A stretch of DNA of 36,791 nt from assembly GCA_024639405.1 (NCBI GenBank), contig JAHEIL010000006.1, positions 1,421-38,211 of the forward strand, written 5' to 3'. The position numbers and the translations under genes were made by a program. Origin of the DNA: Crocinitomicaceae bacterium. Its GTDB lineage: Bacteria > Bacteroidota > Bacteroidia > Flavobacteriales_D > Crocinitomicaceae. Below the pieces are notes generated by a model. The model saw only the letters and a program-made list of their open reading frames with translations. It was not told where the DNA came from and did not search any database. Numbering within the stretch: the first letter of the stretch is position 1; each line of letters opens with the position of its first letter. Positions 12,804 through 29,868 of this stretch are shown here, piece by piece.

Positions 12804-13625
12804 CTACCAACTTCCGCCGGAGCCACCACCGCCAAAGCCGCCGCCGCCAAAACCACCGAATCCACCGCCTGAACTTCCGCCACCAAAGCCTGAGCCACCT
12901 CCGCCAAAGCCTCCGAAGAAAATTCCGCCAGAACCCATTGTGAATCCTCCTCTGCCACCGCCACGGTTGTTGCGTGCGAAAATAATAACAACAACGATTA
13001 TAACGACAATGATTAAAATTGCGCGACCAATGCTATCTTTTTTCTCGTTTTTTTTTTGGTATTGCTTTGAATTGAATTCGCCTTGTGATAAGCCTTTTAA
13101 AACTTTTAATGCAGCTTGAATACCTTCGTAATAGTTTTCGTTTTTAAAGTTCGGCAGCAATTCGTTATCCACAATTTGATTGCAGGTATAATCAGGAATA
13201 GCGCCTTCTAATCCACGACCCGTCGCAATAAACGTTTTGCGTTCACCCTTGCCACCTGTTGGTTTGATCAAAATAACAATACCATTGTCTTCTTTTTCGT
13301 GACCAACTTTCCATTTATCACCTAATTTTGTTGCGTATTCCCATGGTTCATAACCATTTAAATCATCAACAACCACCACTACAATTTGATTGGAAGTTAC
13401 TTCTGCAAATTCCACCAATTCTTGTTCCAATTGTGCTGCTTCTGGTTCCGATAAAAAGTTTGGAAATTCTTGCGATAAATTCACATACAAGCGAGCAGGT
13501 ATTGGCGCATTTGGAATATCATCTTGAGCAAATGTTGGTGTATTGAAAAAACCTAAAATGATTGAAAACAGTACGATCCATTTTTGAGCAAAACGGTTTG
13601 TATTGGGCATATTTTTATTATTCAT
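12804..13625 (-). CDS. TPM-domain protein, signal peptide, membrane segment, Gly-rich tail
   Basis: The ATG at 13625 (MNNKNMPNTN) is preferred over the upstream in-frame TTG and GTG codons. It overlaps the preceding gene's end as ATGAATAA (8 bp) and gives 273 aa; ATG at 13610 is an alternative. The N-terminus has a signal sequence (WIVLFSIILGFFNTPTFA). The TPM domain (about residues 45-180) contains the typical TSNQIVVVVVDDLNG, DNGIVILI and TGRGLEGAIPD stretches. A membrane segment (AILIIVVIIVVVIIFA) near 205-222 is followed by a tail almost wholly of Gly, Ser and Phe ending GGSGGSW. This is the classic YgcG/TPM arrangement found beside LemA. The proposed role is in envelope maintenance, including photosystem II repair in plants; the biochemical activity here is unknown. 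Confidence 0.88.
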   Translation of the reverse strand: MNNKNMPNTNRFAQKWIVLFSIILGFFNTPTFAQDDIPNAPIPARLYVNLSQEFPNFLSEPEAAQLEQELVEFAEVTSNQIVVVVVDDLNGYEPWEYATKLGDKWKVGHEKEDNGIVILIKPTGGKGERKTFIATGRGLEGAIPDYTCNQIVDNELLPNFKNENYYEGIQAALKVLKGLSQGEFNSKQYQKKNEKKDSIGRAILIIVVIIVVVIIFARNNRGGGRGGFTMGSGGIFFGGFGGGGSGFGGGSSGGGFGGFGGGGFGGGGSGGSW

Positions 13626-14797: not shown

Positions 14798-14879
14798 GCG
14801 CACGTGGTGAAATTGGTAGACATGCCATCTTGAGGGGGTGGTGCCATTAGGTGTGCTGGTTCGAATCCAGTCGTGCGCA
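14798..14879 (+). tRNA. tRNA-Leu (anticodon GAG)
   Basis: A complete class II cloverleaf can be drawn. The acceptor GCGCACG (14798-14804) pairs with CGTGCGC (14872-14878), with discriminator A at 14879. The anticodon stem CCATC/GGTGG encloses the loop TTGAGGG, giving anticodon GAG, which reads CUC and CUU leucine codons. A long variable arm (GCC/GGT) and a T-arm with GGTTCGAATCC follow. The 3' CCA is not encoded (the next bases are CTC), so it must be added after transcription. Confidence 0.95.
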
Positions 14880-14887
14880 CTCTGATC

Positions 14888-14920
14888 AACGCACTTGTTC
14901 GAAAGAACAGGTGCGTTTTT
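14888..14920 (+). terminator. Intrinsic terminator of tRNA-Leu
   Basis: A 13-bp stem (AACGCACTTGTTC with GAACAGGTGCGTT, one G-T pair) around a GAAA tetraloop is followed by a T-run, nine bases after the tRNA end. Confidence 0.9.
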
Positions 14921-14929
14921 AATTTGAAA

Positions 14930-15159
14930 CGAGTCAAACTTTCAGTTTGAACGAGGAACAACTTAAAAACGCAACCGAGCGCGCAGCGCATAGGTGCGAA
15001 GATCCATTGCACGTCGCGCAGACTGGAGATTTACTCCAGTCGAGTATTCGAGTCAAACTTTCAGTTTGAACGAGGAACAACTTAAAAACGCAACCGAGCG
15101 CGCAGCGCATAGGTGCGGAGATCCATTGCACGTCGCGCAGACTGGAGATTTACTCCAGT
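14930..15159. repeat. Two direct copies of a 111-bp G+C-rich structured element
   Basis: Copy 1 is 14930-15040 and copy 2 is 15049-15159, separated by 8 bp (CGAGTATT). The only difference is A at 14999 versus G at 15118. Each copy has a terminal hairpin at both ends: TCAAACT/AGTTTGA near the left and ACTGGAG-ATTTA-CTCCAGT at the right. Between them is a G+C-rich middle (GCGCGCAGCGCA, TTGCACGTCGCGC) unlike the A/T-rich surroundings. I see no transposase gene. The layout resembles REP/BIME-type or other non-autonomous dispersed repeats. The 339-bp gap between tRNA-Leu and the next gene holds only the terminator, this pair and about 59 bp of A/T-rich leader. Confidence 0.85.
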
Positions 15160-17358: not shown

Positions 17359-18468
17359 TTAGTTAATTCGTTTTTTTCTATTTGTTTCGTAATCATGAAA
17401 TATCATTTCTCCCAATCCTTTTAAGCCTGTATAAAATGCTTTCCCTTTGTTGGCTTGCGTAAACTGTTCCACAAAAGATTGTAGGTAAGGATCTTGAGCA
17501 ATCATAAAGGTTGTGATCGGAATGTGCATTTTTCTGGCTTGAGCAGCCATGGTGTAACATTTCTCAACGATGTGTTGATCTAAGCCATTGCTATTTTTGT
17601 AGTATTGTCCATCAGGTAAGCGCAAGCAACTTGGTTTACCGTCAGTAATCATAAAAATTTGTTTGTTGGTATTGCGTTTTCTGCGGAGAATATCCATTGC
17701 AAGTTCCAATCCTGCAACCGTGTTTGTATGGTAAGGACCAACATTTAAATAGGGAAGGTCTTTTATTTTTATTGGCCACGCGTCGTTTCCAAAAACAATC
17801 ACATCTAAGGTGTCTTTTGGATAAGAGGTGGTAATCAATTCAGCAAGTGCCATGGCTACTTTTTTAGCTGGCGTAATGCGGTCTTCTCCGTATAAAATCA
17901 TGCTGTGACTGATGTCAATCATTAAAACGGTGCTCATTTGTGATTTGTGGTGCGTGTCCTCAACAACTAAATCTTGTTCCGTCAAACGGAATTCACCTAC
18001 GCCGTTATTAATTTGTGCATTTTTAAGGCTTTCTGTCACCGAAATATTTTCAAAAGAATCACCAAATTGAAAAGCTCTAAAATCGCCTGTTGCTTCATCT
18101 CCAACGCCACTTTTCTTCGATTTATGATTTCCAGCCCCACTTTTTCGGATGTTTCCAAAAATTTGTTCCATGGCATTTTTACGAAGTACGCGTTCTGTTT
18201 TCGCTGTGATGGCTAATTGACCATTTCCATCTGGTTGAAGTTCTTCTCGGAGGTAGCCTTTTTTCTTAAGGTCTTCAATGAAATCCTCCATGGTGTAATC
18301 GTCGGTAGTCAATTTGTATTCTTTGTCAAGAACATTCAACCAATCCAACGCTTCATCAACATCTCCTGAAGTATGCGTAATAAGTTCACTGAAAACGTCA
18401 AATAATCGCTCAAATGGCGATTGATTGGGCGCTTCAAATGGAGTAAATACATAACCTGATTTTCGCAT
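17359..18468 (-). CDS. VWA-domain protein, partner of the AAA+ ATPase
   Basis: This 369-aa protein has a C-terminal von Willebrand A domain (about 178-355) with a MIDAS motif D185-I-S-H-S189, a conserved Thr in HTNT (about 248-250) and the ITDGKPS strand containing D276. The N-terminal 130 residues are helical and charged, followed by a basic Gly/Lys linker (KSGAGNHKSKKSGVG) near 109-123. It lacks a signal peptide and is predicted cytosolic. It is first in the two-gene minus operon, directly before the AAA+ gene. The MIDAS site probably binds Mg2+ and docks on the ATPase or its client, as ChlD/CoxE-type proteins do. Confidence 0.88.
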   Translation of the reverse strand: MRKSGYVFTPFEAPNQSPFERLFDVFSELITHTSGDVDEALDWLNVLDKEYKLTTDDYTMEDFIEDLKKKGYLREELQPDGNGQLAITAKTERVLRKNAMEQIFGNIRKSGAGNHKSKKSGVGDEATGDFRAFQFGDSFENISVTESLKNAQINNGVGEFRLTEQDLVVEDTHHKSQMSTVLMIDISHSMILYGEDRITPAKKVAMALAELITTSYPKDTLDVIVFGNDAWPIKIKDLPYLNVGPYHTNTVAGLELAMDILRRKRNTNKQIFMITDGKPSCLRLPDGQYYKNSNGLDQHIVEKCYTMAAQARKMHIPITTFMIAQDPYLQSFVEQFTQANKGKAFYTGLKGLGEMIFHDYETNRKKRIN

Positions 18469-18620
18469 ACGATGAGAGTTTATTTTAAAACAAAAGTAAG
18501 TGAAAAAGGTTTAATATAATCTAACCAAAAAATGTTAAAAGCCAATTTCATTTCAAAGAAAATCTTGTACATTCAAAAAATCTGATTTTCTTTGTGTTTG
18601 ATATAAACTAAATATTATCA

Positions 18621-28572: not shown

Positions 28573-28970
28573 TGTAAGGCTAATCGGTAACTATCTAAGC
28601 CAAAACCAAAAACACAACCAATTGCAACAGGTGAAATTAATGAAGTGTGACGAAATTCTTCGCGTGCAGTAATGTTCGAAATATGAACTTCAATAACGGG
28701 TGTTTGAATTGCTTCTACACAATCTCGGATTGCTACACTCGTATGCGTATAACCACCAGCATTTAATATAATTCCATCGACGTTAGCCTGTTGTAATTCA
28801 TTGATGATTTCACCTTCTACATTCGATTGAATATAAATTAATTCAGTAGTTGTAGTTAATTTCAAGGCCTCAAAAAAGGTTTCAAAGCTTTCTGTGCCGT
28901 ATATTTGTGGTGCGCGCGAACCTAGTAAGTTAAGATTCGGGCCATTAATGATTAAAATTTTCATACGCAT
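28548..28970 (-). CDS. aroQ: 3-dehydroquinate dehydratase, type II
   Basis: This 140-aa protein matches AroQ along its whole length: NGPNLNLLGSR (9-19), with R19 and Y24 as the expected active-site pair, then IQSNVEGEIIN, NAGGYTHTSVAIRD (usually NPGAYTHTS), EVHISNITAREEFRHTSLIS and the C-terminal GFGLDSYRLAL. It converts 3-dehydroquinate to 3-dehydroshikimate in the shikimate pathway in the cytoplasm. ATG 28970 gives MRMKILII; ATG 28964 (MKILII) is an equally good start. Convergent overlap with the glycosyltransferase is 25 bp, and the start codon overlaps that of divergent xerD. Confidence 0.95.
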   Translation of the reverse strand: MRMKILIINGPNLNLLGSRAPQIYGTESFETFFEALKLTTTTELIYIQSNVEGEIINELQQANVDGIILNAGGYTHTSVAIRDCVEAIQTPVIEVHISNITAREEFRHTSLISPVAIGCVFGFGLDSYRLALHHFESNKR

Positions 28971-29868
28971 GTTACATTGGGAACGCTATATTAAGGATTT
29001 TGTTTCGTTCTTGAAAATCGAAAAAGGATTAGCAGAGAATTCAATCTTTGCCTATCAGAATGATGTGCGTAAATTACAAGTGTTTTCTGAGGCACGTAAT
29101 TTAGACGCGAAAGCCATTGAATACGCGCATTTACAAGAATTTATTTCCGTCCTTTTTGACTTGGGATTGCATGCTAGATCACAAGCAAGAATTATTAGCG
29201 GCATCAAACAATTTTTTGTTTTTTTATTAGTTGAAGATGAAATTAATGACGATCCGAGTGAATTATTGGAATTACCAAAAGTTGGACGCAAGCTTCCTGA
29301 AGTTTTAACCATTGAAGAAATTGATGCATTAATTCAAGCCATTGATCGAACAAAAGCAGAGAGTCAACGCAATATTGCAATTCTTGAAACATTGTACAGT
29401 TGTGGCTTGCGTGTTAGTGAATTAGTTAGTTTACGTTTTTCTGATTTGTACTTCGAAGAAGGTTTCATTCGTGTAATTGGAAAAGGAAATAAAGAACGCT
29501 TGGTTCCAGTTAGTAAATCCGTAGAAAAAGAGATAAATCGCTATAAAGCAGATGTGCGCGATCATCAAACTGTTCAACCAGGAAATGAAAACATCGTTTT
29601 TTTGAATCGAAGAGGAGCTAAATTAACCCGTGTAATGATATTTACGATAATTCGACAGTTGGCTGCTGCTATTGGTTTGAAAAAAACAATTTCACCACAT
29701 ACTTTTCGCCATTCTTTCGCGACACATTTAATTGAAGGAGGAGCCAATCTGAGAGCCATTCAAGACATGTTGGGACATGAAAGTATTACTACGACAGAAA
29801 TATACACACATTTAGATCAACGATTCATTCGTGATGCAATCATCCGTTTTCATCCTAGAAATAGTTAA
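28969..29868 (+). CDS. xerD: Tyrosine recombinase XerD-like
   Basis: Starting at ATG 28969 (MLHWERYIKDFVSFL) it has 299 aa, the usual XerC/XerD length. A GTG further upstream at 28894 would lie within aroQ and is rejected. The N-terminal SAM-like core-binding domain covers 1-95. The catalytic set is complete: R148 (GLRVSE), K172 (GKGNKERLVPV), H244-x-x-R247 (HTFRHSF), H270 (MLGHESI) and Y279 (TEIYTHLD). It should resolve chromosome dimers at dif with FtsK. No dif-like site was found nearby. Being single and flanked by housekeeping genes, it looks chromosomal rather than a phage integrase. Confidence 0.94.
   Translation: MLHWERYIKDFVSFLKIEKGLAENSIFAYQNDVRKLQVFSEARNLDAKAIEYAHLQEFISVLFDLGLHARSQARIISGIKQFFVFLLVEDEINDDPSELLELPKVGRKLPEVLTIEEIDALIQAIDRTKAESQRNIAILETLYSCGLRVSELVSLRFSDLYFEEGFIRVIGKGNKERLVPVSKSVEKEINRYKADVRDHQTVQPGNENIVFLNRRGAKLTRVMIFTIIRQLAAAIGLKKTISPHTFRHSFATHLIEGGANLRAIQDMLGHESITTTEIYTHLDQRFIRDAIIRFHPRNS

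Follow-up and report, generated by a model that had tools for sequence, protein, structure and literature searches.

The window, the whole stretch of 36,791 nucleotides analysed here, contains a tRNA-Leu(GAG) gene followed on the same strand by two copies of a 111-nt direct repeat (14930-15040 and 15049-15159; period 119), the only such repeat family in the window. The two units are identical at 110 of 111 positions, the sole mismatch being an A at 14999 and a G at 15118, and they are separated by the 8-bp spacer CGAGTATT. A match of this extent between two units is not chance, and the pair reported in the preliminary description (two 111-bp copies, one difference, 8 bp between them) was recovered as stated. 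The hairpin it placed at each end of each unit is also borne out by the sequence: unit 1 pairs TCAAAC with GTTTGA at 14934-14950 and ACTGGA with TCCAGT at 15022-15040, and both ends of unit 2 do likewise. The RNA fold of unit 1 has an energy of -35.3 kcal/mol (z -3.20), with 1 of 200 shuffles folding equally well. In an Rfam scan of the window no family except tRNA attained its gathering score, all other matches being sub-threshold.

Relatives in other genomes carry more complete versions of this DNA. The element to which unit 1 belongs is larger: it begins inside tRNA-Leu(GAG), in the T-loop at 14864, and unit 1 forms its right part. Unit 2 is a half-unit lacking both the left end and the first hairpin (H1). 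The features of the locus are as follows.

14798..14880, + strand: tRNA-Leu(GAG), the host gene (ARAGORN; RF00005)
14864..14880, + strand: tRNA 3' end from the T-loop, AATCC...CAC, 17 nt, copied downstream in the family and complementary to the right arm (sequence comparison)
14881..14895, + strand: left-end motif TCTGAT and inner stem (alignment of 26 elements)
14890..14920, + strand: hairpin H1 and T-run, terminator-like on the tRNA strand (-17.7 kcal/mol, z -6.25)
14930..15040, + strand: repeat unit 1, the right half of the full element (repeat search)
14934..14950, + strand: apex of the central palindrome H2, unit 1 (sequence; fold)
14970..14998, + strand: hairpin H3 of unit 1 with an A-run 5' of it, terminator-like on the opposite strand (sequence)
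15002..15015, + strand: right-end motif ATCCATTGCACGTC, unit 1 (covariance model, 54.5 bits; the same sequence is also in the model)
15016..15032, + strand: tRNA-Leu-specific arm GCGCAGACTGGA and loop, complementary to the 3' strand of the tRNA acceptor and T-stem (pairing energies)
15033..15042, + strand: degraded tRNA 3' end copy ACTCCAGTCG (sequence; AATCCAGTCG stands at the equivalent place in genome G006)
15041..15048, + strand: 8-bp spacer (repeat search)
15049..15159, + strand: repeat unit 2, a half-unit without left end or H1 (repeat search)
15121..15134, + strand: right-end motif, unit 2 (46.7 bits)

The copy at 15033-15042 is a degraded version of the tRNA 3' end AATCCAGTCG at 14864-14873. 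A genome-wide count in the source genome (G000; 52 contigs, 98% complete) placed the 111-bp unit at this locus only, as two copies, besides one 36-bp partial match that sits behind tRNA-Val(TAC) and adjoins copies of the tRNA-Val 3' end. The unit is nevertheless not restricted to this DNA, because relatives occur in other genomes. The part of the earlier interpretation that holds is that of a non-autonomous type of element, structured, without genes of its own and duplicated in tandem.

Comparison of the collected elements establishes the anatomy of the full element, which is about 150-180 bp in size and lies directly 3' of its host tRNA. Its left part runs from the T-loop through the 17-nt tRNA 3' end, TCTGATnAAAGC, and H1 with its T-run to the central palindrome H2, and its right part continues with the A-run, H3, the motif GCTTTnATCCAYTGCACGTCG, the arm, a short loop and finally the tRNA 3' end again. 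The conserved ATCCAYTGCACGTC is located after the second hairpin and before the complementary arm, and the arm consists of about 10-12 nt that resemble the tRNA's own 5' acceptor and T-stem strand. CACTCTGAT is invariant in 26 of 26 aligned elements, although for its TCTGAT part this follows from selection, because the elements were collected by this motif. Among 36 full-length elements, a loose positional test found a T-run of at least 5 in the H1 region in all 36 and an A-run of at least 5 before H3 in 34, and the 7-bp inner stem had a mean of 6.39 of 7 positions paired (5 of 7 in the window). The second 3'-end copy, scored in 35 tRNA-linked contexts, matched at 17/17 positions in 8, at 15-16/17 in 5 and at 7-13/17 in 22; that of the window is degraded and that of locus L164 is exact. 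Half-unit tandems recur, with 12 adjacent pairs in 10 loci (window included), and full tandems number 5. The element can fold back on itself, the tRNA 3' end and the right arm forming an outer stem that encloses H1, H2 and H3.

These elements form a family present across several families of one order, the Flavobacteriales. The right-end motif was found at 65 places in 39 of 249 Flavobacteriales genomes (1 for a reversed-pattern control), coding places included, which number at least 11 as judged by eye among 57 contexts (L085, L093, L109, L110, L111 (2), L113, L159, L161, L162, L163); it was also found in 55 of 240 family genomes (control 0), where L231, L240, L262 and L263 were judged coding among the further copies. 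The left-end motif occurred at 37 places in 26 of the 249 genomes (control 1), at least 4 of them coding (L172, L175, L176, L177). The 57 contexts represent the 65 places minus those in G182, G096, G147 and G202, the two window copies, one G006 copy and one identical repeat. A tRNA lay upstream on the same strand within 1.2 kb in 35 of the 57, in 24 of these at 113-132 bp, and several contexts without such a tRNA are second copies within a tandem. For the further copies, 27 of 49 had a same-strand tRNA within 700 bp, a figure obtained by subtraction of 22, many of which are at contig ends.

Host tRNAs are Lys(TTT), Arg(TCT, ACG, TCG, CCG), Val(TAC) and Leu(GAG), to which are added tmRNA (with a variant motif ending GTT) and, by the left end, Ala(GGC). 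In the source genome a covariance model, built partly from that genome's own copies, placed the element at Leu(GAG) twice, Val(TAC) and Arg(ACG). A phylum-wide covariance search of 374 genomes with stricter filters matched 7 genomes, of which only G000 and G060 were true; the five other matches (L197-L201) had no tRNA and were read as coding. Searches of phage, plasmid and viral-contig records by exact patterns and blastn returned no element match. At tRNA-Leu the element is present in some members of the genus and absent from view in several others, and a similar element stands at tRNA-Leu in genera g1 and g32. A search with partial coverage of the literature found no name for this element, which is weak evidence.

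Several other repeats and ORFs lie behind tRNAs in these genomes. In contigs C35 and C41 of the source genome (L043, L044, L024), repeat units of the same plan with other motifs follow tRNAs: three tandem units of ~94 bp at tRNA-Ser(GCT), one unit at Ser(GGA) and two longer units at Arg(TCT), in each case with copies of the 3' portion of the tRNA that begins at the T-loop. Behind tRNA-Leu in G022 (L059) there is a Y1_Tnp-type ORF with palindromic repeats, and no element copy was seen there. A small GIY-YIG nuclease ORF lies between tRNA-Val and further 3'-end copies in G000 (L003, 1033-1269) and G006 (L081, 164-442), and a weaker GIY-YIG match lies behind tmRNA in G191 (L125, 1804-2094); as a candidate mobility enzyme these ORFs were set aside as too few cases. 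Contigs G019:C110, G024:C59, G022:C465, G008:C78 and G014:C56 terminate at elements or within about 250 bp of them, and therefore draft assemblies may break there.

The right arm is specific to the host tRNA. Given 26 aligned elements, RNAalifold chose a structure in which the right arm pairs with the tRNA 3' end. In this structure 90.4% of cells were paired (shuffled, 72.0; 0 of 500 shuffles), 56 cells were changed on both sides (19.4 +- 3.4; 0 of 500 shuffles) and the covariation score was 0.441 (0.137; 0 of 500 shuffles), scores that are flattered because the structure derives from the same alignment and related sequences inflate them. Pairs changed on both sides (6 vs 5.0; 36 of 500 shuffles) and pair types (15 vs 15.1; 322 of 500) were not above shuffles. 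Sliding the partner by one column lowered pairing to 37.7-41.5%. When each arm was paired with the 3' ends of the different tRNA types, 30 of 32 elements bound that of their own tRNA best; the two misses were L096, which has a degraded arm, and L105, a near tie, and the 32 are the elements with an intact tRNA end before TCTGAT, 6 of 38 being omitted. The window's arm pairs with its own tRNA 3' end at -22.0 kcal/mol, the next best type reaching -8.7.

Ends can differ between elements that are otherwise close. Genome G123 holds three copies with body identities of 90.8-93.8% that bear Lys or Arg(TCG)-type ends, and the remaining 35 collected elements are at most 72.4% like its Lys copy. Of the three, one is bounded by tRNA-Lys ends, L146 terminates with the 3' end that tRNA-Arg(TCG) has in G019, and L157 with a degraded form of that 3' end; no tRNA-Arg(TCG) was found within the 19-kb stretches read around L146 and L157. 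Flanks vary as well: at tRNA-Leu, G000 and G006 agree in the element and on the upstream side but have different DNA on the downstream side. By eye, the displaced copies L146, L157, L164 and L243 have a common left flank of ~45-50 bp across genera. At tRNA-Arg(ACG) of G060 (L203), a two-unit insert is flanked on either side by a 51-bp block made up of tRNA 3' end and terminator.

Recombinase, restriction or CBASS genes lie near several copies away from tRNAs. In L164 a 9.4-kb insert starts at tRNA-Lys and finishes with another, exact copy of the 17-nt 3' end of that tRNA. The element makes up the last ~175 bp of the insert, which has genes for a tyrosine recombinase, a BamHI-type endonuclease and a DNA methylase. 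L171 carries a Tyr recombinase (177.7 bits against TIGR02249, below the cut-off of 265) and a D12 methyltransferase. In L165 a resolvase accompanies type II CBASS genes (effector, cyclase, E1-E2, JAB), which stop 0.2 kb ahead of a shortened element, and in L170 CBASS genes with a NucC-type effector lie about 5 kb from another; in these two genera the shortened element is to the right of the CBASS genes. Both shortened elements (L165, about 12993-13090; L170, about 18384-18480) consist of the left end, H1 and the right end only. In L169 a PDC-S06 gene and a helicase lie at distances of 3-7 kb, in L166 a large serine recombinase adjoins tRNA-Lys 12.6 kb upstream of the copy, and in L241 two half-units flank 5.9 kb that include PDC-M64 genes. 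Half-units around cargo have REs 1.8 kb apart in G083 and 5.9 kb apart in G689. No defence gene was named in L167, L178/L144, L173 or L234.

PADLOC at E<=1e-20 assigned 67 families among 63 case ORFs and 0 among 68 control ORFs, a contrast that is strong but not blind because some of the genes were already known when the cases were chosen and the control contains near duplicates (L227/L233, L251/L255). The cases were 12 displaced loci, one without an ORF and some previously known to hold defence genes, with L150, L168, L174 and L235 excluded for having little left flank; the control comprised 9 loci left of tRNA-adjacent copies, with L239, L242, L244, L245 and L247 left out. The neighbouring recombinases differ from one another, being Tyr (weak arm-domain match), Xer-like, large serine and small resolvase. 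NCBIfam identifies the tyrosine recombinase encoded in the window itself (28894-29868) as XerD, at 331.5 bits to TIGR02225 with a cut-off of 329.6, and this gene is therefore not a partner. A PF00589 search of the source genome gave 5 matches, one of them identified.

Among known systems, tRNA-targeting integrative elements, whose att sites include a T-loop class, share with this family the breakpoint in the T-loop, the restoration of the tRNA 3' end where the copy is intact and, in L164, an exact 17-nt direct repeat around an integrase-bearing insert. They differ in that most copies here are gene-less and bring a tRNA-specific complementary arm, a terminator-like hairpin and half-unit tandems; an integrase gene is present in L164 and L171, and none adjoins the window's element. 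At the tyrT/rtT locus of E. coli, too, a tRNA is followed by tandem repeats that include its 3' end. The present family differs in occurring at many tRNAs and in having a conserved motif and an antisense arm, and the Rfam scans gave no rtT match. Integron attC sites and cassette arrays are similar in their same-strand arrays, fold-back sites and cargo between sites (L144, L241). Their core pair RYYYAAC ... GTTRRRY occurred in 0 of 38 elements, a test of low power because the shuffled mean is only 0.4 of 38, and as a candidate IntI the L171 recombinase falls short of the TIGR02249 cut-off. MITEs and fold-back elements are likewise short and gene-less with inverted arms, but the present elements are placed at tRNA or tmRNA 3' ends or in islands and their arm tracks the host tRNA. 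Tycheposons are mobile islands linked to tRNAs in another phylum, and we know of no comparable fold-back end in them.

There are several possible explanations for such an element. The pair could be a functional RNA or terminator module in which H1 ends the tRNA transcript and H3 ends convergent transcription, and in which an arm reached by read-through anneals to the 3' end of the tRNA and influences processing, the whole being maintained by selection for pairing at the RNA level. The nearly universal T-runs and A-runs, although scored by a loose positional test, fit this account, as do the covariation of tRNA 3' end and right arm, the excess of G.U cells (16) over A.C cells (5) that we counted in the outer stem of related sequences, and the similar element at tRNA-Leu in genera g1 and g32. 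H1, however, should halt transcription ahead of the right arm; the element is unseen at tRNA-Leu in several members of the genus; half-unit tandems, copies without a nearby tRNA and the company of defence genes are unexpected; and no Rfam family beyond tRNA reached its gathering score. We regard this module as unlikely, if still a serious contender. It is also conceivable, though quite unlikely in our judgement, that no dedicated enzyme is involved and that fold-back template switching at tRNA and terminator hairpins produced sense-antisense-sense copies, with tandems added by slippage. The plan of the element is indeed sense-antisense-sense of tRNA 3' end and terminator, L203 and L081 show 3' end and terminator on both sides, and units of the same plan with other motifs stand at other tRNAs of the source genome; copying of this kind does not account for a non-complementary motif common to different tRNAs, genera and families, for the exchanged ends in G123 or for the location near recombinases and defence genes.

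Alternatively, the element might be a passive resident of tRNA tails that was displaced when unrelated islands integrated upstream at the same tRNA. Integration at tRNAs is widespread, and the host tRNA lies 9.2 kb (L164) and 3.2 kb (L167) upstream. Against such displacement, which we consider improbable, there is no tRNA in the 13-18 kb left of L165, L169 and L170, the Arg(TCG)-type ends of G123 occur without such a tRNA in the 19-kb stretches, and three displaced copies have, by eye, a left flank in common. The REP/BIME pair proposed in the preliminary description, mobilised by a RAYT transposase, is the part of that interpretation that did not survive and in our view is scarcely credible. 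Copies are palindromic, intergenic and paired, and PF01797 (Y1_Tnp/RAYT) occurs in 17 of 26 genus genomes; yet the search for a neighbouring RAYT gene gave 0 matches to PF01797 in the 98%-complete source genome, and also 0 in G004 and G017, which carry the element, the unit has not spread through the genome, and the element is linked to the 3' ends of tRNAs, following the tRNA on the same strand in all 35 tRNA-linked contexts.

The reading that we prefer, and to which we give a little short of an even chance, invokes a family of integrative elements that target tRNAs and tmRNA in Flavobacteriales; the pair would be a right-end array from this family, either remnant or empty. Joining of element and tRNA within the block formed by the T-loop and 3' end would fall to a site-specific recombinase that usually acts in trans and uses inverted tRNA-like half-sites. 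The full element would bring a terminator-like hairpin and, where intact, end in another copy of the tRNA 3' end. Larger forms would carry defence genes and solo and half copies would be leftovers; half-units could flank cargo or, as in the window, nothing, and the second unit of the window probably came from a recent tandem duplication. Several observations speak against this integrative role. The right arm to the left of the copied 3' end differs from the T-loop, and a strict common core would need identity there; the 51- and 68-bp direct repeats around the inserts of L203 and L081 exceed the yield of a core exchange; and the second 3'-end copy reaches only 7-13/17 in 22 of the 35 tRNA-linked contexts. 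No recombinase is common to the copies and none lies beside the window's element, and two of the five covariation measures fail to exceed shuffles.

A bolder proposal, rather doubtful as it stands, is that the family represents a cassette system hitherto undescribed. The T-loops of tRNAs and tmRNA would serve as its landing platform, recombination would take place at the folded tRNA-mimicking end, made up of the conserved ATCCAYTGCACGTC and a target-complementary arm, and next to this end defence modules (CBASS, restriction-modification, candidate systems) would be loaded. Target choice would then be written in the arm and re-written on moving to another tRNA.

The element may mark how anti-virus genes get added to tRNA genes. 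If so, a short recognisable sequence would flag the attachment of defence islands to tRNA genes in Flavobacteriales and provide a handle for discovering new defence systems, and retargeting between tRNAs by a change of the complementary arm would become testable. It would also explain the odd repeats behind tRNA genes at which several draft-genome contigs end.
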